A stretch of DNA of 64,000 nt from the IMG/VR virus record IMGVR_UViG_3300033148_005363, positions 22,605-86,604 of that record. The stretch is one strand, 5' to 3'. Below, piece by piece: positions 22,005-62,124 of this stretch. This DNA comes from a virus. The notes beneath the pieces were generated by a model. It was not told where the DNA came from. It worked only from the letters and a program-made list of their open reading frames with translations, and searched no databases. The stretch's first letter is position 1, and every line of letters starts with the position of its first letter. The position numbers were made by a program, and so were the translations under genes.

Positions 22005-22619
22005 CTATGGCCTCCCTGCCACGCCGTTCAGCAGGACAGCGACCCGAGCAGCATACCGGCGCTTGAGCCCGATACGCCACTTCTTGAACGCGGGCTCCAT
22101 GAACGGATAGGGGGGGATGCTATAGGTCAGGACCGTAGTACTCGCCTTCAGCGGGGCCTTGATCGTGCCCTGAATGAACAACGCGAGGAAGAGCCGCCGC
22201 ACCGCCGGGGTCACTGGCACCACCACCACCGGGACCCCGTACTCAAGGGCCTTGGCTACATTCACCAGCCCCTGCCCGTCCCTACCCACTGCCGACCTCT
22301 TGACACCCACGAAATACGCAGCGCGGCCACCCATGTACATATGCGTAACGCTAACGTTGTTCCGCAGGTCCCCGTGCCGCATCAACGCCTTCGTCCCGCT
22401 GAACCCCTGCAACTTTCGGATACCCAACGTGATCGGAGACAGGGACGAGAACGCCCGCCCGCCCGGGGCTTGGTTCGTAATCCCCTGGACGATCTCGCGC
22501 CGGAGTGCGTGGGCCTCCAGCGCGGCCGCCCGCGTCTGCGCTCGCTCCATTTTCTCAGGGAGGGTACGCAGGATACGCCCGGTCTTCCGCCAGTCGCCTG
22601 TGAGTTGGATCTCTGACAT
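22005..22619 (-). CDS. tail completion / virion morphogenesis protein (Mu gpG / HK97 gp10-like)
   Basis: 204 residues. The central LGIRKLQGFSGTKALMRHGDLRNNVSV matches the conserved 'L.rTG.L..SI' motif of phage virion morphogenesis proteins, preceded by a helical N-terminus. The C-terminal YPFMEPAF is also typical. It acts at the head-tail joint. The start overlaps the upstream stop. Confidence 0.75.
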   Translation of the reverse strand: MSEIQLTGDWRKTGRILRTLPEKMERAQTRAAALEAHALRREIVQGITNQAPGGRAFSSLSPITLGIRKLQGFSGTKALMRHGDLRNNVSVTHMYMGGRAAYFVGVKRSAVGRDGQGLVNVAKALEYGVPVVVVPVTPAVRRLFLALFIQGTIKAPLKASTTVLTYSIPPYPFMEPAFKKWRIGLKRRYAARVAVLLNGVAGRP

Positions 22620-25518: not shown

Positions 25519-27189
25519 TCAGGCGCTGCCGATCTCGTGGTTGTGGTCCGCCTCACCGGTGATAACGTGCGTGTGCGCGCTCTCCGCGTCGGTGGTCGCA
25601 GGCAGGCCGTGCGTGTGCGTGGACTCCGCGTCGGCGGTGACGCCCGTAGCACCAGCCGCGATTGCATGGGTGTGCGTGGATTCGGCCGCGTTGGTGCCCG
25701 CAGCCACCATCCCGTACTGCGCCCGCTCGTCGTCGGTCGCGCTGTACTTGTCGCCAGCATCGCCAGCGCCGGTGAAGTCCGCGTTGAGGCGGTTGGTGTC
25801 CGCCACCGCACCGTCGTCGAAACTCACAGCGATCCCGCTGGGGGCGGCCTCATGAACAATCTTCACCAGCAGACCAGTGGTGGTCGGGATGTAGATGTCC
25901 TTGCCGTCCCGGGTGTTGTTGCACCGGAACCGCTCACCGTCGGCCAGGTCCTTGTCGAAATTCACAGCGAAACCAGCAGGCACACCCTGATGATCGACTT
26001 CGATCAGGCTGCCGTCAGCCAGCTCGTAGTCCATGGGGGTACCGGCAACAGCGTTGTTGGCGTTCATGACCCCGAACATGCCCATTACGCTCACAACGTG
26101 CAACGCGTTGCCTGCCACCACACCGGCGTTGTCCTCCACTTTCGCGTTCGTGGTCGGCAGAGCCGTACCGGTGAACGCGTGGTTGTGGGCCGCGCCTGCG
26201 GCAGTCGCCGCGCCGTGATCGTGGTTCGGATCCGTCACCGCGTGGGTGTGCGCCGCACCAGCGTCGGACGGCCCCGTGATCGGGTGGCTGTGTGCTCCAC
26301 CCGCCCCGGTTGCCGCGCCGTGATCATGCGCGCCTGCGTCCTTGGCCTGAGCCAGTGCCCACGCCGCGCCGGTATAGACGTAGATCCGATCCTCGTCCGC
26401 CACCCACACGGTCAGCCCCTCGGTGGAGACGACCTCGATCCAGGCCGAGCCGTCGTAGACGTAGCAATTGCCGTCCGTCCAGCCGTTCGCCGTCGCCGTA
26501 GCGATGTAGGCATCCCAGTCCGCGGGGCCGGCCGGAGTTGCCGCAGTGGGATCGAACCGATCCAGGACCCCTTCCAACGCCAGGATGGTCAGGGCCGCGT
26601 GCTGCGCCTCCGTCAGGTGGTAGTACTCACCAGCGGTACCGCCCTGGAGCGACGCCAGGATCCCATGCACCAGGCCCTTCTCCAAGTAGTCCCAGGCCGC
26701 ACCGTCGAAGGTGTACCAGCGATCCTCGTCCTCCACCCGCATGGCCGCACCCTCGTCGGGGACAAACTCATCCCACGCGCCGGTGCTGTTGCAGGTGTAG
26801 ATGTAGTTCTCGGTCCAGGTGTTGGCCGTCGCCGTCGCCAGGTACCGGTCTCCCTCGGTGGGAGTCACCGGCAGGTTGGGGGTCGGATCATACCGATCCA
26901 GGACGCTTTCCTGGGGATCCTTGTCCCCCATCAGCCCGGATTCCAGACTGCCACGATCCACGCCCAGCACCACGAGCTGCGTGGCGCCCGTCGCCGTGAC
27001 GAACGTCAGGTATGTGGTCTTCAGCGCGTTGAGGTACAGGGTTATGTCCCCCGTCACCGCATCGACGTCGACCGTCAGATTCTGCCGGGCGATGGACGCT
27101 CGCAGGGCCGCCACAGCATCGGGCGCATGGCGCACCGACAGATGGGTCCCGGGGACGCCTCGCTCGGGAAGGTTGGTCAAGTTAGCCAT
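25519..27189 (-). CDS. capsid-adjacent protein with tandem DUF2793-like domains and nine H-x-H motifs
   Basis: 556 residues. Two copies of a ~95-residue domain start at about 96 (LDRYDPTPNLPVTPTEGDRY) and 207 (LDRFDPTAATPAGPADWDAY); both carry ATATAN-W and DEDR-Y(V)-GAAW segments of DUF2793 type. Two His-rich tracts follow, at about 285-345 and 495-556, with nine H-x-H motifs (HDH, HSH, HTH, HNH). In T4 gp37 and gp12, H-x-H repeats bind metal in trimeric fibres. Its place directly after the major capsid gene suggests a capsid decoration or head fibre. Confidence 0.7.
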   Translation of the reverse strand: MANLTNLPERGVPGTHLSVRHAPDAVAALRASIARQNLTVDVDAVTGDITLYLNALKTTYLTFVTATGATQLVVLGVDRGSLESGLMGDKDPQESVLDRYDPTPNLPVTPTEGDRYLATATANTWTENYIYTCNSTGAWDEFVPDEGAAMRVEDEDRWYTFDGAAWDYLEKGLVHGILASLQGGTAGEYYHLTEAQHAALTILALEGVLDRFDPTAATPAGPADWDAYIATATANGWTDGNCYVYDGSAWIEVVSTEGLTVWVADEDRIYVYTGAAWALAQAKDAGAHDHGAATGAGGAHSHPITGPSDAGAAHTHAVTDPNHDHGAATAAGAAHNHAFTGTALPTTNAKVEDNAGVVAGNALHVVSVMGMFGVMNANNAVAGTPMDYELADGSLIEVDHQGVPAGFAVNFDKDLADGERFRCNNTRDGKDIYIPTTTGLLVKIVHEAAPSGIAVSFDDGAVADTNRLNADFTGAGDAGDKYSATDDERAQYGMVAAGTNAAESTHTHAIAAGATGVTADAESTHTHGLPATTDAESAHTHVITGEADHNHEIGSA

Positions 27190-27233: not shown

Positions 27234-28169
27234 TTACGCGTAGGTGATCCCGGTCCCCTTCACGATCCCTTCCTCTTCGCCGAACGTGCAATCCGCACGC
27301 ACGGAGATCAGGATGTAGACCACGCCGTCCCGCTTGGACACCTCGTGCTCCACGTCGATCTTCCGCTGGAAGCCGACGATGAAGTTCTTGCCCGCACCCA
27401 TCAGCGCCGTGGAATCGGCGCCGGTGCCCTGGGTGTCAGGCATGACCGGCACGCCCACGACAGGCATACCCTGCCAGCGCGGGGTCATCCCCTCGATCGC
27501 TGCCCGGTCACCCGCGGGGGTGCCGCGCTCACCGATCTGGTCCGCGTACTCGGACTCGGCATCGGAGCCCGTGTAGCAGGTCATCGTCTTCTTGCCGCGA
27601 CGCTGGGCCTTGGGCATGGTTGCCCACATGGCCTTGAAGACATCCTTGGAAACGATGTCCCCGCCCGCGGCGTAGACATTCGAGGTCGCCTTCTTGATCC
27701 AGCCGTTGAGGACGGCCAGGAAGGTGTCCACAGACGCGTCGTCCCCGTTGAGGAAGAGCTCGTCGAGGTCCAGCCCCGCGCGCTCCACCATCAGGGAGGT
27801 GATGAGGGCCTGGAACTTCTTGCCCTCGATGTTGTCCTCGAAGACCTCACGGGGGATGTCGCACTCCCCCTTCAGGAGCTTCGCGGTCAGGGTGTCCCGA
27901 CCGAGATCCGGCTTGACCCGGCTGCCCGAACCCACGGCCGCCCCGGAGGTACCCGCAGCCAGCACGCGGGAGCTGGTGAAGCCCACGTTCTCGACCCGGC
28001 GCTCGTTGCTCTTCATCGTGAGCACTCGGGCCCGCGGGAGGATGGTTGACGAAGCGATCAGCTTCTTGAGGAATTGCTTGGCCTGCTCGGGGACCAACAC
28101 ACCACCATCGGTGGTCAGGTCAGCGAGGGCCATGTCGGCTTTCTGAACCCAGGTGCGCGCGTCTTTCAT
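27234..28169 (-). CDS. major capsid protein (HK97 fold)
   Basis: 311 residues. The pattern fits HK97-type capsid proteins: TTDGGVLVPEQAKQFLKKLIASSTILPRARV (start of the mature fold), GECDIPREVFEDNIEG (E-loop/P-domain side), then ALITSLMVERAGLDLDELFLNGD, and a C-terminal FIVGFQRKIDVEHEVSKRDGVVYILISVRADC strand region. The N-terminus is short, so the scaffold is a separate gene. It lies downstream of the protease fusion and the scaffold-like gene. Confidence 0.88.
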   Translation of the reverse strand: MKDARTWVQKADMALADLTTDGGVLVPEQAKQFLKKLIASSTILPRARVLTMKSNERRVENVGFTSSRVLAAGTSGAAVGSGSRVKPDLGRDTLTAKLLKGECDIPREVFEDNIEGKKFQALITSLMVERAGLDLDELFLNGDDASVDTFLAVLNGWIKKATSNVYAAGGDIVSKDVFKAMWATMPKAQRRGKKTMTCYTGSDAESEYADQIGERGTPAGDRAAIEGMTPRWQGMPVVGVPVMPDTQGTGADSTALMGAGKNFIVGFQRKIDVEHEVSKRDGVVYILISVRADCTFGEEEGIVKGTGITYA

Positions 28170-28242: not shown

Positions 28243-29121
28243 TCAACTGCCCGAAGCAGCCCCACCCCCCTCTTCATCGCTGGCCAGATCAGCCGGCCAA
28301 TCCGTATCCCCGTCTCCGTTTTCGTCCTTTCGGACATGGGAGGCATTGAATCCGTCATCTGGATCCAGCGCTCCCGGGCTGAAGACTCGCGCCTTCAGAG
28401 CACGCACCTGGCGATTTGCGTCTGCAACTTGACCCGCCAGTCGGTCGCTGCGGCCCTCCAGAGCCTTGCAGACTGTCTGGTAACCCTCGACGAGGCCCGT
28501 GGCCTTCGTGAGGTCGTCACGGAGATCGGCGCCCTGCACTGCCTTGCTCAACAGGCCTTGCAGAACCGCACGGAGTTCACTCATGTCCTTCTTCTCGTCG
28601 GTGCCCGCAGGGGCCGCTGCCTTGCCGTGGATCAGCCCGGGGTGCTCACCCTTGTGGATATCCAGCACGATCCCGAAGGCCTTCCCGATGGTGGCCAGGC
28701 TCTCGCTCACCTCAGTCGGGAACACCACGTCGTCGGGGAAAAGCCCCGCGTCCTTCTGGACCTTCCCGAGTGCGTCGTCGAACTTCACGAAGAACTCACC
28801 GATATGCTTCAGCATCATCTGCAAATTCTCGGCCACGACGGGATGGCACTTCATCGTCGAGAGGTCAGGGACCACCAGATCCGACAGCCCCCAGAGCGGC
28901 ATGAGGGGCATCCGCTCCCAGCCGCCCTTCTCCACATCCACGCCCTTGGCCAGGGCGCTGGAATAGGCCACGCTCTTCTCGACCATGTCCACCACGTCAT
29001 CGCCCGGGAGATCGGACTTGATGACCACGAACTTCTCGCCGTTCGCTGCCCGCCCAACGATGGAGACCTCTTCGATGTCCATGTCGGTCAGTCGCGTCCG
29101 TTTGACTACACTTCGCAGCAT
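28243..29121 (-). CDS. scaffold-like head protein with XkdF-type N-terminus
   Basis: 292 residues from the ATG at 29121 (GGAGGGG site, just after the upstream stop). The first ~40 residues (TRLTDMDIEEVSIVGRAANGEKFVVIKS) match the segment that opens XkdF-type phage proteins. The remainder is helical and charged with an acidic Gly/Ser-rich end, typical of scaffolding proteins. It sits between the protease fusion and the major capsid gene. Confidence 0.65.
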   Translation of the reverse strand: MLRSVVKRTRLTDMDIEEVSIVGRAANGEKFVVIKSDLPGDDVVDMVEKSVAYSSALAKGVDVEKGGWERMPLMPLWGLSDLVVPDLSTMKCHPVVAENLQMMLKHIGEFFVKFDDALGKVQKDAGLFPDDVVFPTEVSESLATIGKAFGIVLDIHKGEHPGLIHGKAAAPAGTDEKKDMSELRAVLQGLLSKAVQGADLRDDLTKATGLVEGYQTVCKALEGRSDRLAGQVADANRQVRALKARVFSPGALDPDDGFNASHVRKDENGDGDTDWPADLASDEEGGGAASGS

Positions 29122-29125
29122 CGTC

Positions 29126-31291
29126 TCACCCCTCCGGCGTCCGGTTGGCCCGCCCACCGATTGAGAACCCTGTCAATTTACCGACCTGCACATCGGCCCA
29201 CATCTTGTCGTCGAGGATCTTCCAGCCCTGGAGCCAGTCACCCTTCTTGATCGCCTCGGCCTTGCCGTCCGCTGTCTCTGACCCCGGGATCTCAAAGTCT
29301 GCCAGCGCCTGGAAATTCTCGATCAGGACGACGCGGTTCCCCGCCGCCTCGCGGTGCAGGAACCCTTCCTTGTGGCCCTTCTCCATCCAAGAGAACATCG
29401 CCTCTCGGACCGCTGCCTCGTCGTAGATATCGCCCTGCTTGTCCTCGACATTCGCCCGCAGAACGAAGCCCAGGACATACCGCTCCTCTTTGGATGGATC
29501 GGCCTTGAGGAGGGTGACGTCCCACGCCTTGGTGGTATCGCCCGGTGCATCCTTCCCCGTCATGGCCGCGCCGCACTTGGGGCACTTCGTTTCGTTGCAT
29601 GGCGCGCCGCGATCATGGGGCGTTTCATGCCCGCACGCTGGGCATACACAGCGATCAGCGCCCCCGGTGCCTTCGGGAAGGCCGCCCTGACCCAGCCCCT
29701 TCTCCATCCGTCCCCGGAGGGCCTCGGGGAGCAGGAGATCCAGCGCGTCCTTCTCGTCGAAGGCGGGCTTGATCCCGAGCTTCAACTCTGCCTCGACAAT
29801 CCGGGTGTGTACGGTCTTGCGGTCGCCGTCGTTCGGGTACCCATCTGCGAACTGCTTGAACCGCACCCGCGCGTTGCGGGCTCGCTCCACCGTGTCGCAA
29901 GGGTACATAAGGTTCACGGGATCCCCGTAGTCCTCAAGGGTGGTCGACCACTTGGGCGGGAACGTCAGGCGTTCGCCCTGACCGTCGAGCGCGGTGATCC
30001 CCCACTTCTTCGACCGGAGGGCCTGGGACTCCCGCTTCTCTTCGGTGGTCATCCCCGCCGCGGGCTCAAGAGCCACGGCCTTCTCAATGTGCTCAGCCAG
30101 GGACTTCACCGCCGCGGCGTCCATGCCCAGCAGTTCAGCCAGACCGACAATGCCCTTCTGGACCCCGGCGAGCTCTTCGTCCGGCACCTGCCCCTTCAGG
30201 ACCTGATGCGCCGCCAACGCGGACTGCAAGATCACTTCCAGCGACACAGCGTCGTCGGACACCTCGGAGGGCTGGAGCCTGCCGATCCCCGTGTTCAGAT
30301 CCTTCAGGACACGGAGGAGGTCGCCGACCATCGGGACCCCGGAGGCCAGCACTTCGGCCTGCGCCTCGGTGATCTGGACCCGCTGATCCTTCCGCATCAT
30401 GGACACGGTCTTCGCATCGAAGTTGGTGATAACCAGCATGGTCCCGGTCTTCGAGTGAGCGCCAGTCTTCGCCCACGGGACCGGCACCTTGTGGGACTTC
30501 ACGTTCAGCCCCTTCCAGATCCCGGGATCTCCCTTCTCTCCACACGTCACCAGCACGCGGCTCTTCAAGCCCTTGACCACGTCGGCGTGCTTCGCCTCAT
30601 CCCATTTCTCCTCACCCACGAACTGCCGGAACCCGTGATAGGGAGGATCGTGGAACTGGAAGGTATCCGGCCCGTCGAACTCCTTGCAGACCTTCTCGAA
30701 ATCCTCGTTGCGAATCACCACGCCAGCCAGGCGCTCCCGGGCCACTGCCATCCGCTTCACGGACATCGGAACACTGGTACGCGCAGATCCGATCCGCTCC
30801 ATCGCAGGCGACGGGGTGCGACCGATCCCCATGAACGAGGCCAGTTTCAGAAGCAGGAACTTGTGGAACCGCGCTACGTCACCCTTCGGAGACGAGTCAC
30901 GCAGCTTCTGGAAATCCGCTACGGTGTCCAACCACCACTGCATCCCCTCAAGTTTCTTGATCTGCGCATCGGTGACCTTCTGGACGAACCCGAACGCGAA
31001 GGCGATCTCCGCGTCCAGGTCGTTCAGGACTTCCTTCTCCGCCGGTTCCTTGGCGAAGAACATCGCCCCGCTGCCAGCGAAGGGCTCGACGTAGGTCTTG
31101 TGCTCGGGGAACATCTTCAGCAGTGGCTTAGCGATCGCGCTCTTGCCCGCGGGGGACTGCCACATCACGGCCATTTTCTGGACGTGTTCCAGCCCGAACA
31201 TCTGAACCAGAGCGCGCTCGTCCTCAAGGAAATCCTTGCACAGGAATTCCACCAAGCCGCCGCTGCCAGTGTAGTCGAACTGTGGATCCAT
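29126..31291 (-). CDS. fusion: D12-class DNA adenine methyltransferase + Zn ribbon + XkdF-type prohead protease
   Basis: 721 residues from the ATG at 31291 (GGAGG site; the ATG 15 nt upstream has none). Residues ~40-295 are a D12-class N6-adenine methyltransferase: EPFAGSG (69-75) binds AdoMet and HDPPY (214-218) is catalytic. A helical linker and a DUF6582-like segment (~425-510) follow. Two cysteine pairs (550/553 and 570/573) form a zinc ribbon. The C-terminal ~120 residues have the XkdF protease pattern with candidate His646 (GFLHRE) and Ser710 (LTGFSIGGRA). It sits where the prohead protease belongs. No stop or frameshift separates the domains. Confidence 0.8.
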   Translation of the reverse strand: MDPQFDYTGSGGLVEFLCKDFLEDERALVQMFGLEHVQKMAVMWQSPAGKSAIAKPLLKMFPEHKTYVEPFAGSGAMFFAKEPAEKEVLNDLDAEIAFAFGFVQKVTDAQIKKLEGMQWWLDTVADFQKLRDSSPKGDVARFHKFLLLKLASFMGIGRTPSPAMERIGSARTSVPMSVKRMAVARERLAGVVIRNEDFEKVCKEFDGPDTFQFHDPPYHGFRQFVGEEKWDEAKHADVVKGLKSRVLVTCGEKGDPGIWKGLNVKSHKVPVPWAKTGAHSKTGTMLVITNFDAKTVSMMRKDQRVQITEAQAEVLASGVPMVGDLLRVLKDLNTGIGRLQPSEVSDDAVSLEVILQSALAAHQVLKGQVPDEELAGVQKGIVGLAELLGMDAAAVKSLAEHIEKAVALEPAAGMTTEEKRESQALRSKKWGITALDGQGERLTFPPKWSTTLEDYGDPVNLMYPCDTVERARNARVRFKQFADGYPNDGDRKTVHTRIVEAELKLGIKPAFDEKDALDLLLPEALRGRMEKGLGQGGLPEGTGGADRCVCPACGHETPHDRGAPCNETKCPKCGAAMTGKDAPGDTTKAWDVTLLKADPSKEERYVLGFVLRANVEDKQGDIYDEAAVREAMFSWMEKGHKEGFLHREAAGNRVVLIENFQALADFEIPGSETADGKAEAIKKGDWLQGWKILDDKMWADVQVGKLTGFSIGGRANRTPEG

Positions 31292-31352: not shown

Positions 31353-32063
31353 CTAGTCGTCGTCGCCAGCCTCGGCCATGTCGTAGTCCCACGCCTCGTC
31401 GCCGCCGCCGCCGAAACCCTTGGTGATGGCCTCGAGGTCCTCGCCCGCCTTCTTCAGGCCCGCGTCGTCCTTGCCCTTGTCGGTGCCGTTGAGCTGACCG
31501 AGCCGTTCCTGGAGCTTCGCCTTCTCGTCGTCGGTCAGGGTCTTGCCCTTGGCCTTGGCCTTCTCGAGGTCAGCCTGGAAGTCGGAGACGGCCTTCTCGA
31601 AGCCCTTCTTCTCGTCGCCGCCAGCGGCAGCGATCTTCGCGCCGCACTCAGGACAGGCACCGTTCTTGAGCATGTCGGTCGTGCCCTTCCAGCCGCAAGC
31701 CTTGCACGCCGCGTCTTCCTTGGCGAGCCCTGCCTGCATGGCCTTGAGGATCTTGGCCGCCTTCTCCAGGTTGTCGTTGCCCGCGCCGTCGCCGTCGGAC
31801 TTCGCCACCTTGAAGGTGATCGAGTCCGTCTCTGCCTTGCCGTCCTCGATGGCCTTCAGGATCGCCTCGATCTTCGGGGCCATCTCCTTGGCGACCGTCT
31901 GGACCTTCGCAGCGTCGCCACCCGTGGCTGCCACCGCGGTGGTGACCTCTTCGATGGCCTTGCCCAGGGTCGTCTTGGTCTCGTCGCCCGCACCGCCGCC
32001 GCTGGCCGCCATGCCGAGCAGTTTCTTGAGCAGGTCCGCGCTCGTCTTCAGTTCGTCGCTCAT
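31353..32063 (-). CDS. scaffold-like head protein with internal zinc ribbon
   Basis: 236 residues from the ATG at 32063 (GGAGG site). It is mostly helical, rich in Lys, Ala, Asp and Gly, with a four-cysteine ribbon in the middle (CKACGW and CPECG, about residues 120-142), a coiled coil after it and an acidic C-terminus (WDYDMAEAGDDD). It lies immediately upstream of the protease fusion, which has its own zinc ribbon. A scaffolding role is inferred from composition and place. Confidence 0.6.
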   Translation of the reverse strand: MSDELKTSADLLKKLLGMAASGGGAGDETKTTLGKAIEEVTTAVAATGGDAAKVQTVAKEMAPKIEAILKAIEDGKAETDSITFKVAKSDGDGAGNDNLEKAAKILKAMQAGLAKEDAACKACGWKGTTDMLKNGACPECGAKIAAAGGDEKKGFEKAVSDFQADLEKAKAKGKTLTDDEKAKLQERLGQLNGTDKGKDDAGLKKAGEDLEAITKGFGGGGDEAWDYDMAEAGDDD

Positions 32064-32085
32064 AGTTCCTCCACGGCTTCCAGCC

Positions 32086-32457
32086 TCACAAAGGTCTTCC
32101 GTCCGCGCCGACAACAACGTCGTGCCGCGGTCTCAAAACAACAGGAGCATACGCCTTACGACGCAGATCCGGTTCCCACTCGTTCCCATCGATCGACAGC
32201 AACAGCCAATGCAACAGGTGGTCAGCGATTCGGTACGGACTCATTTTGCAGTCGAACCGAGCCACCTTCACCATCTCCTTGACTACCCCGAACCGATGAT
32301 TCAACTCCGCCCTGGTCATCGCCGCAGCCATCGGACGCTCAGCAAAACTGGTGAGGATCGCCTCCTCCACTGCGCGGTCAAGATACCTCTTGGCCTTCGC
32401 AGATTCAGCGACCTCGTCGTTGCCTATGAGCGTCAGTGAGGGGACGGTTCGTTGCAT
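32086..32457 (-). CDS. small protein of unknown function
   Basis: 123 residues, helical and rich in Ala/Arg, with two cysteines at most and no motif. It has a GAGG site and lies 83 nt downstream of the Mu F-like gene, behind a promoter-like sequence of its own. Confidence 0.55.
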   Translation of the reverse strand: MQRTVPSLTLIGNDEVAESAKAKRYLDRAVEEAILTSFAERPMAAAMTRAELNHRFGVVKEMVKVARFDCKMSPYRIADHLLHWLLLSIDGNEWEPDLRRKAYAPVVLRPRHDVVVGADGRPL

Positions 32458-32540: not shown

Positions 32541-33932
32541 TCAGATCTCCGGCACCGTCGTCGTACGACAATATCCGTGGTACGGCGGGGGACCGATGCC
32601 CTGTCCCTGCAGCGCCTTGTCGGAGAGCAAAAACTTGAACGCCCCGTCCTTTCCCCTGGTGGCGATGGGTGTCACCTTCCCGCTGGGTGGCTTGAGGAAC
32701 ATCTCCCCGCCGCTCAGCCTGATCCACGGTGCCGCCTGCTTGATCTCCCGGGGGTCGGACATACCAGCCCGGTCCCCGAAAGCCTTCATCGCCGTCCCGA
32801 CCTCGAAGACCTTCCCGTGCAGCCCCACGCAGATAGGCGTCGTCGCCTCGTCCAGTACCGCCTCGATCCGGTACCGCTGGATCCCCGCCTCCGAGTACCC
32901 GGCGATCTGCGCGTAGCTTCTGGCGTCCTGTACCCAAGCCTGCGCGCAGAGTTCCGCGTAGGCCCGATTCCGCCCGAAGGTTTCGTCCGACAGCCACGTC
33001 CCCTCCAGTCGCCGCGCTATCTCCTTCGCGCCCAAACCGTCGGCAACCGCGGACTCCACCACCCGCATCCCATCGCGGGTCAACCGATCCCGCAGGTTCC
33101 CCCGCCTGTCGGTGAGGTAGTGCCCTGTCCGTCCCTTGATCCCGTCCACGATCCGCTGATCCATGTGGTTCAGCGAGGTCCGCAGCCGAATACTCAGCGC
33201 CGTCCCCACGCTCTTCGTGGTCCCGCTCACCACGGAGGTAGACGTAGTCGCCACCACGGCACCCACTGCCACCGCTGCCCGGCGATGCGTCGCCTGTACC
33301 CCCACCGCAGCCACAGCAGCGCTGATAACCTTCTCCCTGTCAGCAACGCTCAGCCCCGTCCAGTCGACGCCCTCAAGCCCCTTCAGCGACAGCCTAATCG
33401 CTGCCCGCTCCTCGCGCTCCGGCAGATCGCCGATGTCCTTCGTCAGTTGCCGCACGATCTTCGCGAAGTCTCCCGTCTTGTTGGGATCCAGCGCCTTCTT
33501 CGCCTTCTCCACCTCCACCGGGACACCGAAGGCCCCCAGTATCTCGTCAGCGGCCGCGATGCCCGCCTCAATGAGGTCCGCCTCCCAGCACGGGACCATT
33601 CGGCCCACCGTCTCGCCCACGGCCCCCAGCGAGCTGCTCGCCCGCACCCGCACCAAGTCAACAGGGTTCAGGGTCCTGCGCACGATGCGCTCCGCCGCCA
33701 CCTTCGCCCCGCTCTGCACCACGTGAACGACCGGCCCCTCAAGGGCGTGCTCCACCAACACGAACCGCCGTCCCTGGGTGACGACCCGCTCCCCGCCCAA
33801 GAGGAGGATGCCCTCCCCCGCGGTGGCGAGTTTCCGCACCCCAGCCGCTCCCCAGATCCAATGCCCTGCGCCCTTCGTGATCATGGTCGTTCGATCCCGC
33901 GGCCGGACCTCAATGCTGATACCGTCGATCAC
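32541..33932 (-). CDS. phage Mu gpF-like minor head protein
   Basis: 463 residues from a GTG overlapping the terminase stop (GTGA). The C-terminal part has the Mu F-like head-morphogenesis signature: RYRIEAVLDEATTPICVGLHGKVFEVG, and a closing GPPPYHGYCRTTTVP. The N-terminal ~80 residues are beta-rich and the middle is helical. Such proteins lie next to the portal and take part in procapsid assembly or DNA injection. Confidence 0.8.
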   Translation of the reverse strand: MIDGISIEVRPRDRTTMITKGAGHWIWGAAGVRKLATAGEGILLLGGERVVTQGRRFVLVEHALEGPVVHVVQSGAKVAAERIVRRTLNPVDLVRVRASSSLGAVGETVGRMVPCWEADLIEAGIAAADEILGAFGVPVEVEKAKKALDPNKTGDFAKIVRQLTKDIGDLPEREERAAIRLSLKGLEGVDWTGLSVADREKVISAAVAAVGVQATHRRAAVAVGAVVATTSTSVVSGTTKSVGTALSIRLRTSLNHMDQRIVDGIKGRTGHYLTDRRGNLRDRLTRDGMRVVESAVADGLGAKEIARRLEGTWLSDETFGRNRAYAELCAQAWVQDARSYAQIAGYSEAGIQRYRIEAVLDEATTPICVGLHGKVFEVGTAMKAFGDRAGMSDPREIKQAAPWIRLSGGEMFLKPPSGKVTPIATRGKDGAFKFLLSDKALQGQGIGPPPYHGYCRTTTVPEI

Positions 33933-35896
33933 CAGTCCCCTCCCCCGGCGACGGTCACGCCAACGTCTGCCCCGTCGTCGTCCTCCCAGTCAAGCCACAT
34001 CCCGTCCTCCTCCGAATACTCGGACATCATATCAGCGAGGAGGCCCTGGCTGTACACGTCGATCAGGCAAATCAGGCCCTCGACAAATGCGTCCATCACG
34101 TCGTCGGTCACGTACAGCGGGAACTCCGTGAGCTCTGAAACCAGGTCCCCACGCTCCTGTGTCGCCTGGTCCCGCTCCGGATCCAGGTGGTCGGCGAAGA
34201 TCACGTTCCCGGTCTCAATGTACGGCGACACCTCAAGCAACCGCGTCCCCTTGTCCGCGCTCGGCTTGAATCCGTACACGGGCAACATCGTCACCCGATC
34301 CAGTTCCTGAGCCAGGGCAGCCTGGTACCCGATGGTCTCGATGATAATCCGCCGCGCTCGCCACTTCAGCCAGTCAGCCACCACGCGCTTGAATTGCTGG
34401 AAGAAAGACAGTTTCGCGTGCCCAGCCGACAGCACGAACATCTTCTTCTCGCTGGGTGACCAGCCCTCCACGCACCACGCAAAGTAGTCGCTGCTCTTCT
34501 TCCCCGAAATCGCCAGGTCGTATGCAACGACCAAGTGCAGGTCATCGGGGAACTGCCTGAGCGGTCGGTACTTGATCCAGTGAGGCTGAATGACGATCAC
34601 GTCCCCGCTCAGCGCGATGTTCCTGAACCCGCGGTCGAACTCCACCTTCCCGATCTTCTTCCGCTGCCGGGACAGCGCAGCCCGCGGCCACATCGCCTCC
34701 CAGATCGGATCGAGGTTCTCGTTGATCGCGTACTCGCGAATAGCGTAGATCCTGTCCTTGTTCCGCAGGAGATCGTGGGTCAGGTCGTCTTTGTGCCACT
34801 TCGTCGCGATGTACCACGTCCGCCCCCCGGGGAGGAGGAGGTTAGAGAAATCGCCCTTGAACGACATCTTCACGTTCTCGCGCTGCTTCGGTTGCAGGAT
34901 CGCGTTCCGCCGGTCCACCACGTCGTCGCAGATGTTCAGGTCAGACCGTCCGCCCGTCGCAGTCGACAGGATCCCCAGCGCGTGCACCGACGCATCGCGG
35001 GCCACGATGGTACGGCGCACGTACATCTTGTGCTTCGACCACTCGCCCTTTCCCGCCGGCAGCAAGTTCGGGAACACGAACTTCAGCCGCGGGTTTTCCT
35101 CAATATGCCTCTGGACCTCGTACAGACGCTCTTTCGCCTTGTCATCCGATTGGCAGACGATCTTGATACGCAGGTTCTGATTGTTGCCCAACTCCCAGAG
35201 CACCCGGCCCACGAGGATCGTCGTGTTGTGGGTGACGATCCCGCCGGTCACATGCGAGTGCAACCCCGGGACCTCGATCCCGAACGTCTGCCGCAGACCA
35301 ACAGGCGTCACGGACACCAGTTCATCCCACCCATGCCGCCCGTCGTCTTCCAGGACGCACACCGGATTCCCGGGGCAAAGTCTTCCAGCGTACACCCATT
35401 CGGCCCGCGTCCACACAGGGTGGTCCGTCGTCACCGTCAGCCGCCGGCCAGCGCCGGTCTCCAGTTCCACGCACTCCTGCACTCCCGAGTCGAATACAGC
35501 GGAGCACGCCGCCGGCTTGAACTTCAACCCCCCATCGTCCCAGGCCAGCACCTCGTCCGGCTCCGTGATCTCCTCCACTGGCAAGCGGCGACCATCCGCC
35601 ATCTGCACAGGCGTCCCGGCGACCATGCATTTTCCATGACCCCTTGGCGCTATGATTATGCAGTCCAGATGCTCACTCAGCAGGTCCAACCACTCCCGGT
35701 GGAACCACGCCAGCTTCAGCGGTTCACCGGTCTCGGTCTCGATCACGTATTCGATGAAAAGTTGAGGGTCCCGCCGCAATCGCCGCCTGAACAACTCGCG
35801 CCTGGCCAGGAACCGAAGGAACGCCAGCCGCACCATCTTCTGCCGGGGCGTCAGTGGCTCGTAGCGGGCCTCCGCAGTGGGGTCCGGGGTAGGCAC
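33929..35896 (-). CDS. terL: terminase large subunit interrupted by an intein
   Basis: 655 residues from a GTG just after the portal stop. The P-loop is split: APRGHGK, then an intein (residues 90-224), then TTILVGR; splicing restores GHGKTT and gives a 520-residue terminase. Other features are a Walker-B-like LNICDDVVD (320-328), the nuclease start VAYDLAISGKKSSDYFAW (457-474) and a late DDVMDAFVEGL (598-608). It packages DNA into the procapsid. Without splicing the ATPase should be inactive, because the nucleotide loop is broken. The small terminase lies apart, at 39.4 kb. Confidence 0.92.
   Translation of the reverse strand: MPTPDPTAEARYEPLTPRQKMVRLAFLRFLARRELFRRRLRRDPQLFIEYVIETETGEPLKLAWFHREWLDLLSEHLDCIIIAPRGHGKCMVAGTPVQMADGRRLPVEEITEPDEVLAWDDGGLKFKPAACSAVFDSGVQECVELETGAGRRLTVTTDHPVWTRAEWVYAGRLCPGNPVCVLEDDGRHGWDELVSVTPVGLRQTFGIEVPGLHSHVTGGIVTHNTTILVGRVLWELGNNQNLRIKIVCQSDDKAKERLYEVQRHIEENPRLKFVFPNLLPAGKGEWSKHKMYVRRTIVARDASVHALGILSTATGGRSDLNICDDVVDRRNAILQPKQRENVKMSFKGDFSNLLLPGGRTWYIATKWHKDDLTHDLLRNKDRIYAIREYAINENLDPIWEAMWPRAALSRQRKKIGKVEFDRGFRNIALSGDVIVIQPHWIKYRPLRQFPDDLHLVVAYDLAISGKKSSDYFAWCVEGWSPSEKKMFVLSAGHAKLSFFQQFKRVVADWLKWRARRIIIETIGYQAALAQELDRVTMLPVYGFKPSADKGTRLLEVSPYIETGNVIFADHLDPERDQATQERGDLVSELTEFPLYVTDDVMDAFVEGLICLIDVYSQGLLADMMSEYSEEDGMWLDWEDDDGADVGVTVAGGGDW
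35225..35629 (-). other. mini-intein in the terminase P-loop
   Basis: 135 codons, from Cys90 to Asn224 of the precursor. Block A is CMVAGTPVQMADGRRLPVEE, block B holds TTDHPVW with its conserved T-x-x-H, and the C-terminal block is GIEVPGLHSHVTGGIVTHN, ending His-Asn with Thr as the first downstream extein residue. The length is near the lower limit for inteins and leaves no room for a homing endonuclease. All residues needed for cis-splicing are present. Confidence 0.9.
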
Positions 35897-35897
35897 A

Positions 35898-37835
35898 TCA
35901 GTCCTCGGCCCCGTCGTCGTCGTCGGGTGTGGCCACCATGCGCACCATCTCAGCCCACGGGATCTCTAGCCGAACGACATCCTCACCGCCCGCCGCGTTC
36001 CGAAGGGCCTCAGCGCCGTCCAGCCCGTCTGCCAGCGCATTCCGCAGTGCCACCACGCGGTTCACCGCCTCGTTCAGCCGCCCTGGATCGACTCCCCGCG
36101 TCGCCTGGGTGCCCTGGACGCCCGCGCCCTCAGCGGCCCCGTCGCCGTCCGGCGCAATGCCTGCCAACGTGAAGAGCATGGGCTGCTTCGTCCACGCCTT
36201 GTGGATCTCCGGCAACTCAGCATTCAGGATGTCCGCCGCCTGCTCCCGCACCTCCCCAGGTACCAGGCCACCGGCCTTCGCCAGGATGTCAACGATCTTC
36301 GCCTGGGTCTCGGGGTCCCTGGTAATGGGTGACCTGCTCCGCGTCCGAACCAGCCGGTACCCGCGGTCACGGCAGAAGGTATCGAACTCATCGTCCCACG
36401 CCTCACGCAGCGGGCCAGCCACCATGTTCTCAAACATCGTCAAGGCGGACATCGCGGTCGCGCGATTGTAGTCCCCGCCCGCTGCCCGCAGGATGCGCGG
36501 CACCCGCATGGTCTCCGCCGCCTTGTCCCGGTTCTCCTGATCGTACTTGATGAACGCCGCCTCGTCCGGCTGGAACAACCGCTCCAGTACGATCTCCACC
36601 TTCCCCGTGCTCCCGGCGTTCACACCCCCCTTGCTCTTGGGCGGCAGGGCCTCGATGACCAGCATCTTATGCCGGCCCTTCCGGCCCTTGAGCCCCTTGA
36701 AGTGCTCGGCGATGACATCCGCCGCCCCGCTCTTCAGTTTCCCGCCGTTCACCAGCACCACATACGGCGGGATCCCCGACTCCGAGAAGTGCAGGAGGTT
36801 CGTGTCCTCCATCGCCGTGCTACCCATCACGGACCGCAGCCCGCCGAACCAGAGCGGGAACCCCCACACGCTCCGCGAATCCGGGATCACAAAGTGGTAG
36901 ATCTCCGTTGCCTCATGATCCGTCTCCTCGTCCCTGCCCAACTCCCGAAGGTGCGACTCCCACGCCTCCCTGTCCTCGAAGTACTTCCCCGTCGCCCTCG
37001 ACATGATCCGCGGGTCACCGTACTCCCTGAACCAGATCTCCCGACCGCTCTCCAGCACCTGCGCCCACCGACGGAACCGACGCCACACCCCACGCGTCTC
37101 GATCCGCAGGCCCACCCGGATCTTCTCCTGGACCTCCACCGCCTGCTCATCCTGCTTCGTGGGCCGCAAACGCAGCATCGATACCCACTGGAACCGCGCC
37201 GGCCCCCCCGCACCTTCCTCATCACCAGCGTCGCGCATGACCTCCACAGCCGCATTGCCCAGACCCACCCACTCGTCACGGATCCGGCTCCGCAGGTAAA
37301 CGAGGGACCGCCCCTTGTCCACGCAGTTCCGCATCCACACCCGGCAGCTCGCTGTCTCAAACCGCAGGCGCGCCATGTAAGCGGTCTTCGCCGTCTCCAG
37401 GTCATCGCCCTCCGGGTACACCGGCGCATCCTTGAGCTCGCCCTGCTCGTACAGCCACACCCGATCCTCGAAAACGAGATCCGCCAGCTTCTCCTCGAAA
37501 TCCTCGGCATCCGGCGACAGGACCGGCACCACCGCCGCACCGAACGCGTCCACCGTTGAGAAGTAGGCGGCCATGCACTGACGAAGCACATTCGAATTCA
37601 CGTACACGACCCACAGGCCGTCCATGGGCATCGGAGGCGCGACGAACCCACGCTCCGCCCACGTATCCTCCCCCAGGGCCTCGGCGCCCCACATCTGCGT
37701 GTCCTCCACGCCCACGCTCAGCGCCTTCATCACCTGCAACGGGGTGCCGCCATCCAGCCAGCTATCGCCGGTCTCAACGGTCTCAACGTCGCTCCCGCCC
37801 CGCATCGACTCCGCCTTCGACTTCCGCTCACTCAT
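35898..37835 (-). CDS. portal protein
   Basis: 645 residues. The pattern of PBSX/SPP1-type portals is seen: YVNSNVLRQCMAAYFSTVDAFG near the start, WGFPLWFGGLRSVMGSTAMED in the centre, and IPPYVVLVNGGKL, PDEAAFIKYDQENRDKAAETMRVPRILRA and MSALTMFENMVAGPLREAWDDEFD in the stem/crown region. It forms the dodecameric DNA port and the base for the terminase, whose gene follows directly. Confidence 0.85.
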   Translation of the reverse strand: MSERKSKAESMRGGSDVETVETGDSWLDGGTPLQVMKALSVGVEDTQMWGAEALGEDTWAERGFVAPPMPMDGLWVVYVNSNVLRQCMAAYFSTVDAFGAAVVPVLSPDAEDFEEKLADLVFEDRVWLYEQGELKDAPVYPEGDDLETAKTAYMARLRFETASCRVWMRNCVDKGRSLVYLRSRIRDEWVGLGNAAVEVMRDAGDEEGAGGPARFQWVSMLRLRPTKQDEQAVEVQEKIRVGLRIETRGVWRRFRRWAQVLESGREIWFREYGDPRIMSRATGKYFEDREAWESHLRELGRDEETDHEATEIYHFVIPDSRSVWGFPLWFGGLRSVMGSTAMEDTNLLHFSESGIPPYVVLVNGGKLKSGAADVIAEHFKGLKGRKGRHKMLVIEALPPKSKGGVNAGSTGKVEIVLERLFQPDEAAFIKYDQENRDKAAETMRVPRILRAAGGDYNRATAMSALTMFENMVAGPLREAWDDEFDTFCRDRGYRLVRTRSRSPITRDPETQAKIVDILAKAGGLVPGEVREQAADILNAELPEIHKAWTKQPMLFTLAGIAPDGDGAAEGAGVQGTQATRGVDPGRLNEAVNRVVALRNALADGLDGAEALRNAAGGEDVVRLEIPWAEMVRMVATPDDDDGAED

Positions 37836-59920: not shown

Positions 59921-60595
59921 CTACACCTTCCTCATCCTCTCCCCTGCCAACTCCACCGCGTCCCCCTTCACGTCTACCCCATGAAACCGCCGTCCCTGCC
60001 TTACCACGGCCTCCCCGAACGCGCCCGACCCCATGAAGGGATCCAGGATCAACTCGCCATCCTGCGTACTCTGACGCACCAGGAGCTCGCCGAAAGCGAC
60101 GGGCTTCTCCGTGGGGTAGCCGCCGCGTACGCGCTTGAACGCCTGGACGTTGGGTTCACCGAGGTCTGCCAGTTTGCGCTTTCCCTTCTCAAGGAACATC
60201 ACCAGCTCGTACCGGGACCGGTAGTGGTACCCCATGCCCATGGCGACCTTGTCCCACACGATCGGAGTCCAGACCTTGAACCCCACCGCCGAAGCTGTGC
60301 CCGCTACGCACCGCCAGGCCGTCTCCCAATCGCAAAAGACGTAGCAGTGCCGGTCAGGCTTGAGGATCCGGTAGAGGCCAGCGATCACCGCGGCGAGAGC
60401 CTCGTTGGAGATCACCGGGAACCAGTCGGCAGTCAACCGCGTGGTGGTGCCAACGCGCCGGTGCTTCTCCAGACTCTCATACGGGGGATCGGTCAGGATC
60501 AGATCGTAGTGCTCGTCGGGTGCCCACTGCAACCAGTCGAAAACATCCTGGCAGTAGAGCCGGAATCCGTCACCGGTTGCAGTGGGAATGTTCAT
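59921..60595 (-). CDS. DNA methyltransferase (beta-type, N6-adenine/N4-cytosine)
   Basis: 224 residues from the ATG at 60595. The order DPPY (36-39, LILTDPPYESL) first and the AdoMet motif DPFMGSG (about 191-197) later is the N6_N4 beta layout. GYPTEKP and GRRFHGVDV also fit. It modifies phage DNA, probably against restriction. It is only 4 nt after SSB and in the same operon. The recognition sequence is unknown. Confidence 0.88.
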   Translation of the reverse strand: MNIPTATGDGFRLYCQDVFDWLQWAPDEHYDLILTDPPYESLEKHRRVGTTTRLTADWFPVISNEALAAVIAGLYRILKPDRHCYVFCDWETAWRCVAGTASAVGFKVWTPIVWDKVAMGMGYHYRSRYELVMFLEKGKRKLADLGEPNVQAFKRVRGGYPTEKPVAFGELLVRQSTQDGELILDPFMGSGAFGEAVVRQGRRFHGVDVKGDAVELAGERMRKV

Positions 60596-60599
60596 CGGT

Positions 60600-61154
60600 C
60601 TAAGTGCAAGGACTGAAAGGGAAATCATCGTCGTCGGCGCTGCTCGGACGCGTCACCGGCTCGTTCCCCCCGCCCTCGTTCCCCTGGCCAGCGGGTGGCT
60701 GCTGGGGCTGCTGGGGTTGCCGCTGCTGGGGCTCGTTGCGGCCATCGTCGCGTCCCCCTCCCTGATCCCCGCGTCCACCGCCGCCGCCGCCGTAGTTGCG
60801 ATCCCCGCCGCCGCCGCCGCCGCCAGCCGCACCCAAGAACTGGACGGTGAAGGCCACGATCTCCGTGGTGTACCGATCCATCCCGTCCTTGTCCTGCCAC
60901 TTCCGGGTCTGGAGCCGCCCTTCCAGGTAGACCGAGCTGCCCTTGCGGAGATACTCGCTACAGCGCTCCGCGAGTTTGGTCCACACCGTGATTCTGTGCC
61001 ACTCGACGCGGTCCTTCCAGCCGTCTCCGTCCTTCTCGCTGTCGTTGGTGGCGAGACTGAAGTTGGCCACCGCGGTTCCCGATTGGGTGTACCGCAGTTC
61101 GGGGTCACTGCCGAGGTTCCCCAACAGGATGACCTTGTTCACTGATCCGCTCAT
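60600..61154 (-). CDS. ssb: single-stranded DNA-binding protein
   Basis: 184 residues. The OB-fold is clear ([66 protein letters not shown]). A Gly/Asn/Gln-rich linker follows, then the acidic tip DDDDFPF, which recruits partner proteins, here with five extra residues after it. It protects single-stranded DNA in replication and recombination. It has its own promoter. Confidence 0.95.
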
Positions 61155-61386: not shown

Positions 61387-62124
61387 TCAAGATCGATCTC
61401 CCTGCCTCGCGACGATCCCCCGCACGGTCTCAGGGTGCCAGCGTACGCCGGTCTTCGTGGGGACCGCGTCCTCGTCGAGTTGACGAGCGACCTTTGCCAG
61501 CGAAACCCCCTCCCTGCGCAGCCTGACCATCCGGTTGATCACCGCCTGCTCCGCGGCATTCTCGACCAACCCGATCACCCCGTCAGCAGCGGGTACAGCG
61601 TCGAACCCGTAGGGCACCGTCCCGCCCGTTTTCTCCCCGCGCTGGCGCTTCTCCGCAAGTGCCGCGGTGGTGCGCTCCCGCCCGAGGTTCCTCTCCATCT
61701 CAGCGACCCCCGCAAGGACCGTGAGCATGAATTTTCCCATTGCTGAGCTGGTGTCCATCGCTGACCCGCCCTGGTCAACGAGGTGGAGGGCCACGCCGCG
61801 CCGGTCCCAGTCCTCGACGACCTGGAGGGCGTCCCCGGCGTTGCGGAAGAGCCGGTCCAGTTTGAGTGCGATGACGTTGCCGCCCTTGCCGCTGGTCCCC
61901 GGTCCCTGGATCGAGTAGAGCAGATCAGCGCCCCCCGGGCGATCTCCCAGGGCCTTCCCCGCGCTCACGCCCTCGTCGCGGATCAGATCCACAAGATCGA
62001 AGCCCTTCATCTCGCAGTAGAGCCGGATCGCCCGCTCCTGCGCGTCGAGGCCCAGCCCCGACTCCGCCTGCTCTTGGGTCGATACGCGGACGTAGCCGAT
62101 GGCGCGCTGGGTTGCTTCAATCAT
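61387..62124 (-). CDS. serine site-specific recombinase (resolvase/invertase family)
   Basis: 245 residues. AIGYVRVSTQEQ gives catalytic Ser15. QERAIRLYCEMKGFDLVDLIRDEGVSAGK, ALKLDRLFRNAGD and MGKFMLTVLAGVAEMERNLGRERT complete the N-terminal domain and long helix. The end (GVSLAKVARQLDEDAVPTKTGVRWHPETVRGIV) is the DNA-binding domain. It is shorter than large serine integrases, so it may invert or resolve DNA rather than integrate it. Confidence 0.9.
   Translation of the reverse strand: MIEATQRAIGYVRVSTQEQAESGLGLDAQERAIRLYCEMKGFDLVDLIRDEGVSAGKALGDRPGGADLLYSIQGPGTSGKGGNVIALKLDRLFRNAGDALQVVEDWDRRGVALHLVDQGGSAMDTSSAMGKFMLTVLAGVAEMERNLGRERTTAALAEKRQRGEKTGGTVPYGFDAVPAADGVIGLVENAAEQAVINRMVRLRREGVSLAKVARQLDEDAVPTKTGVRWHPETVRGIVARQGDRS

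Follow-up and report, generated by a model that had tools for sequence, protein, structure and literature searches.

Polyvalent proteins are phage proteins in which enzyme domains are joined to a head component and which are encoded among structural genes; their co-delivery with the DNA has been proposed, their cargo includes an adenine methylase, a 2H phosphoesterase and others, and MuF, portal, vRNAP and metallopeptidase domains have been described as their anchors, XkdF being absent from the text (PMC5512222). The Dar proteins of phage P1 are proof that such a delivery route exists, as they are packaged and co-ejected with the DNA, and DarA is cut by the prohead protease (PMC12810830, PMC9024508). 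In this study, we analyzed a window of 64,000 nucleotides (positions 22,605 to 86,604 of the IMG/VR virus record IMGVR_UViG_3300033148_005363) in which a single gene joins a D12-class DNA methyltransferase to an XkdF head protease domain. Its product, P0001, is like polyvalent proteins in carrying several catalytic domains in one chain and in being encoded among head genes, but it has none of their described anchor or hub domains (Pfam), its anchor being XkdF instead, and its methyltransferase is of the D12 class, whereas the polyvalent protein methylase is mostly EcoKI/TaqI-like and fused to a helicase. The P1 Dar proteins offer a second parallel: they serve in antirestriction, are incorporated into the head, and include one member that has a methyltransferase domain (PMC12810830, PMC9024508, PMC5512222). 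However, DarB, a protein of about 250 kDa with an N-terminal capsid-targeting signal, combines an EcoKI/TaqI-like methyltransferase with an SF2 helicase and is not fused to a protease, whereas P0001 has no helicase domain. P0001 shares fold and motifs with the stand-alone Dam/D12 methyltransferases of phages (phiHAP-1, KS9 and others), but theirs are separate genes; with the XkdF head proteases of PAK_P3, Mufasa8, Lactococcus 50901 and Dulem virus 37 it shares the domain, the operon position and the His and Ser, but these are proteins of about 127-411 aa in which no methyltransferase was seen. We found no paper describing a methyltransferase-XkdF fusion in the literature covered, which leaves out most subscription journals and all bioRxiv preprints.

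The family itself is already in PHROGs, without functional annotation, as phrog_13242 (PHROGs v4, "unknown function," 450 positions). Positions 309-430 of this profile match XkdF, both the methyltransferase and the XkdF stretches of P0001 pass against it, the phage orthologue on contig L004 matches profile positions 23-248 and 307-437, and myxobacterial prophage proteins match it end to end, but it has no room for P0001's long helical linker, DUF6582-like segment and zinc ribbon. The RHph_I4 "DNA methyltransferase/prohead protease," considered as a cultured fusion, and the proteins of PAK_P3, Boevelstad and Lactococcus 50901 labelled "DNA methyltransferase" are XkdF proteins in which no methyltransferase was seen. 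In many Pseudomonas phages, the XkdF protease is a bare 138-aa protein but carries the label "DNA methyltransferase" (PAK_P3; L005:2919-3335), as is phrog_1530, and our analysis corrects this mis-annotation of the Pseudomonas phage protein. The head genes of the window and the parts of the fusion are as follows.

35898..37835, minus strand: portal protein (phrog_12, PF04860)
33929..35896, minus strand: terminase large subunit, with a 135-aa intein (phrog_38, 2.9e-69)
32541..33932, minus strand: MuF-type minor head protein (PF04233, phrog_115)
31353..32117, minus strand: 254-aa protein before the fusion, with a ribbon of its own, CKACGWKG...CPECG (sequence)
29126..31291, minus strand: fusion gene P0001, 721 aa (D12 methyltransferase, helical linker, DUF6582-like segment, zinc ribbon, XkdF protease)
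30446..31207, minus strand: tract matching the module exchanged between contigs L002 and L003, codons 29-282 (mismatch map, dS)
30416..31171, minus strand: methyltransferase domain, residues 41-292 (Pfam PF02086, phrog_13242, AlphaFold2/Foldseek)
29771..29932, minus strand: DUF6582-like segment, residues 454-507, helical (weak Pfam match; L109)
29561..29650, minus strand: zinc ribbon, residues 548-577, CPxCG...CPxCG (sequence, conservation, model pLDDT about 62-85)
29141..29500, minus strand: XkdF/Peptidase_S78_2 domain, residues 598-717 (Pfam; invariant H and S; separate model)
28243..29121, minus strand: next gene after the fusion, probable scaffold (conserved neighbour in relatives)
27234..28169, minus strand: major capsid protein (PF05065 8.8e-13, phrog_1623 8.5e-76)

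The preliminary description of this locus, made from the DNA letters, had read one uninterrupted 721-residue frame at the protease locus of the capsid cluster, and both points hold: the frame runs on the minus strand from an ATG at 31291, with GGAGG 7 nt 5' of it, to a stop at 29126-29128, and it lies among the portal, terminase, MuF and major capsid genes. The same protein recurs full-length, at 73-74% identity, on three viral contigs from other metagenomes (IMG/VR) and is therefore no product of an assembly join; with these three contigs and 76 distinct fusion proteins in all, the probability of an assembly join or a chance open frame is practically nil. The linkers of five plain fusions hold no start codon with a ribosome-binding site. 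A frameshift fusion of P0001 into the next gene was also considered and dropped, because that gene starts from an ATG of its own, 4 nt past the stop, with GGAGGGG upstream. An AlphaFold2 model of P0001, built on 23 sequences, shows a confident methyltransferase at about residues 60-290 with a few weak loops, low-confidence linkers, a confident helical segment at about 471-530, the ribbon at about 547-580 and a protease domain of moderate confidence.

The N-terminal part, which the preliminary description had placed in the D12 family, matches Pfam PF02086 (MethyltransfD12) over residues 49-242 with 52.3 bits against a gathering cut-off of 22, and phrog_13242 over residues 31-292 (E 7e-73, profile positions 18-276). 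Its motifs X (WQSPAGK 44-50, with SPAGK at 46-50), I (FAGSG 71-75) and IV (DPPY 215-218) stand in alpha-class order, with a variable recognition region at about 105-205 before DPPY. The modelled domain has a Dam-like fold, matching E. coli Dam (4rtn) at E 1.3e-11 with a TM of 0.72 on the target (Foldseek), and DpnM is also among its PDB matches; in the Dam subfamily TIGR00571, P0001 scores 64.4 bits, below the NCBIfam curated cut-off of 114.85. The fused domain is of the D12/Dam type and would methylate adenine in DNA. Of 109 fused domains, 106 keep DPPY and most also have intact motifs X and I, the second tandem copy of L094 having motif IV changed to YPPY, and dN/dS is about 0.1-0.36. In a tree of 61 sequences, the 51 fused domains sampled cluster together, separate from ten stand-alone enzymes (support 100/97), the branches to the stand-alone enzymes being long, and the tandem copies comprise two old lineages.

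The methyltransferase part also behaves as a unit of exchange. Contigs L002 and L003 share 98% identity along 10.96 kb, and within their fusion genes nearly all differences are confined to codons 29-282, where dS is 0.75 and dN/dS is 0.22, against a dS of 0.013 downstream. We read this difference as a clean swap of the methyltransferase module under purifying selection, as expected for an enzyme whose target specificity matters. Elsewhere on these contigs, L003 and L004 are identical until about 11.08 kb and then diverge within the gene after the capsid gene, a relative of window 25519-27189, which forms a second variable cassette.

At the other end of the chain, residues 598-717 match Pfam PF14550 (Peptidase_S78_2/XkdF) with 63.8 bits against a gathering cut-off of 24, as the preliminary assignment to the S78/XkdF family had it, and the candidate His and Ser named there, His646 and Ser710, are invariant in an alignment of 54 XkdF sequences, part of which were picked by the Ser motif and none by the His. 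A separate model of this domain on the 54 sequences reaches a pLDDT of 81, better than within the full-length model; in the PDB it matches T4 gp21, the capsid protease, best, though weakly (E 0.054), and among its named BFVD matches other XkdF proteins predominate. The XkdF family is a putative protease, which would cleave head proteins. The zinc ribbon is likewise borne out, with six Cys at 548-573, including two CPxCG knuckles (550/553 and 570/573), all of them kept in P0001-P0003. The DUF6582-like segment stands in part: P0001 scores 16.1 bits against PF20223, below the gathering cut-off of 27.3, whereas the corresponding segment of L109, with 28.3 bits, lies above it, and the model shows helices from residue 471 at a pLDDT of about 76-89. 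The middle region of P0001 (290-600) has no match in phage records, and family matches to it are weak only.

The order portal-MuF-fusion-scaffold-capsid is common to the window and to Myxococcota prophages, including that of M. xanthus. The probable scaffold gene opens with an XkdF-associated motif, IEEVSIVGRAANGEKF, of the form EVS(I/L)V-RAAN. In Lactococcus 50901 and Dulem virus 37, a comparable motif stands ahead of the protease in one ORF with it; in the window, the scaffold-like gene may complete the protease fold in trans. In the terminase large subunit, the 135-aa mini-intein splits the Walker A motif (GHGK/T); the L004 terminase, 77% identical to that of the window, is without it. A second, separate DNA methyltransferase gene lies at window 59921-60628 on the minus strand (phrog_67, 4e-40), near an integrase/invertase at 61387-62124.

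The domain-order search that had been proposed in other genomes showed that the fusion is real but not a unique case; it is a recurrent architecture. At least 79 ORFs from IMG/VR and Myxococcota prophages, 76 of them distinct and falling into at least 40 clusters at 90%, carry D12 domains, always N-terminal to XkdF: one copy in 54 ORFs, two in 22 (one of which may hold a single broken domain) and three in tandem in 3 (L209, L210 and L216). Carriers are mostly myxobacterial prophages and include Myxococcus xanthus, with the fusion locus between MuF and the capsid gene. The scans were selective, so that their counts give no estimate of prevalence in phages at large: (i) an IMG/VR scan for the XkdF Ser motif gave at least 14 ORFs with an in-frame D12 domain among the 120 stretches listed; (ii) a second IMG/VR pattern scan, queried with another XkdF peptide only and no methyltransferase sequence, found the methyltransferase at 38 of 55 loci; (iii) a genome scan queried with methyltransferase peptides only found 50 loci, nearly all in Myxococcota, with XkdF present in every methyltransferase ORF that ends within its contig; and (iv) strong phrog_13242 matches occur in 29 of 195 Myxococcota genomes. 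A first genome scan with the ribbon and XkdF as query gave no match, and a methyltransferase-only query returned one ordinary stand-alone enzyme. Protein searches with P0001 and a plain fusion found no D12-XkdF fusion among 50,697 records of cultured phages, and the plasmid matches listed cover only the methyltransferase part.

Methyltransferases are not the only enzymes in this N-terminal slot. Acb1, an anti-CBASS enzyme that here has both of its HxT motifs, precedes XkdF in one frame in L027:1023-2351(+) and L044:4371-5606(+). An ATP-dependent DNA ligase is in frame with XkdF in L019, L021, L156:305-5524(-), L165:4786-10392(+) and L171, and L147:1689-6308(-) has both a methyltransferase and an ATP-dependent DNA ligase; a 2H phosphoesterase fills the slot in L091 and L172. 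ChaB was also found in the N-terminal part of scanned XkdF proteins, and some XkdF-like proteins among the BFVD matches take their name from a zeta-toxin domain. In L165 and L174, head genes (portal, MuF or capsid) are related to those of the window, and the XkdF proteins have other N-terminal parts in place of the methyltransferase. By eye, some ligase-XkdF ORFs also contain LigD phosphoesterase-like and nucleotidyltransferase-like sequence.

Because enzymes are swapped at one anchor, including a known anti-defence enzyme and a variable methyltransferase, a cargo-carrying head protein is the best explanation, and we hold it somewhat more probable than not that the fusion is a cargo-bearing head protease whose methyltransferase is an active, delivered antirestriction enzyme, by analogy with P1 Dar. 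The C-terminal XkdF domain would bring the protein to the head during assembly, where and when the protease normally enters, with the N-terminal D12 methyltransferase riding along as an active antirestriction enzyme of variable specificity. During maturation, the methyltransferase would probably be cut from the protease at the flexible linker, and once freed it would stay with the DNA, be ejected with it and work on the genome as this enters the next host, as Dar proteins do. The MuF-anchored polyvalent proteins follow the same logic with a different anchor (PMC5512222). The preliminary description had put forward three ideas, namely that DNA is methylated at the packaging vertex, that the methyltransferase is carried into the procapsid and that the protein's own protease releases it; of these, carriage with delivery is favoured over vertex methylation and over release by self-cleavage, both by the swapping of cargo in one slot and by the precedent of P1 Dar. 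Against delivery, a head protease may act early, be degraded or be lost, leaving no delivered cargo. A wider reading, to which we give a little less than even weight, is that XkdF is a general, previously undescribed loading platform, on which interchangeable enzymes of counter-defence and DNA processing (D12 methyltransferases in one to three copies, Acb1, ATP-dependent DNA ligase and 2H phosphoesterase) would be loaded at assembly and released at maturation for delivery. Within it, DNA ligase cargo fits genome repair or circularization as well as counter-defence.

D12 methyltransferases of phages commonly protect progeny DNA, and the fusion could serve only to bring an active methyltransferase to the procapsid at a late stage of infection, methylating progeny DNA just before or during packaging, with no delivery. 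The head-operon position, presumably a late one, speaks for this possibility, and the conserved active site and module exchange fit it equally well; yet it leaves Acb1 in the same slot unexplained, because degradation of cyclic nucleotides is useless to DNA being packaged, and the phage already has its separate methyltransferase gene, so that modification in trans needs no fusion. We consider it unlikely, though the most probable of the rival readings. A still less probable reading, and one that we doubt strongly, is that the fusion is a device of expression, in which two enzymes are made as one chain and the protease frees a methyltransferase that is cytoplasmic like any phage Dam. Linkers that are variable or poorly modelled and a protease in the same chain agree with this, but the fusion is kept across at least 40 clusters, duplicated and triplicated domains remain fused, and different enzymes converge on the one XkdF anchor. 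That the methyltransferase-like domain is an inactive, DNA-binding or structural part of the head, as the YPPY copy of L094 might suggest, is very improbable given that almost every copy retains motif IV and most retain motifs X and I, and given the low dN/dS of these domains and the exchange of the domain together with its recognition region.

If the cargo-bearing reading is true, the head protease ranks with MuF and the Dar proteins among the anchors of phage effectors that are delivered, and new anti-defence genes can be sought in the unassigned N-terminal regions of XkdF proteins. Relatives in culturable hosts (Myxococcus xanthus and Corallococcus) make virion content, cleavage and antirestriction directly testable. 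Taken together, our data suggest that the head protease may serve phages as a means of loading the particle with swappable enzymes of counter-defence.
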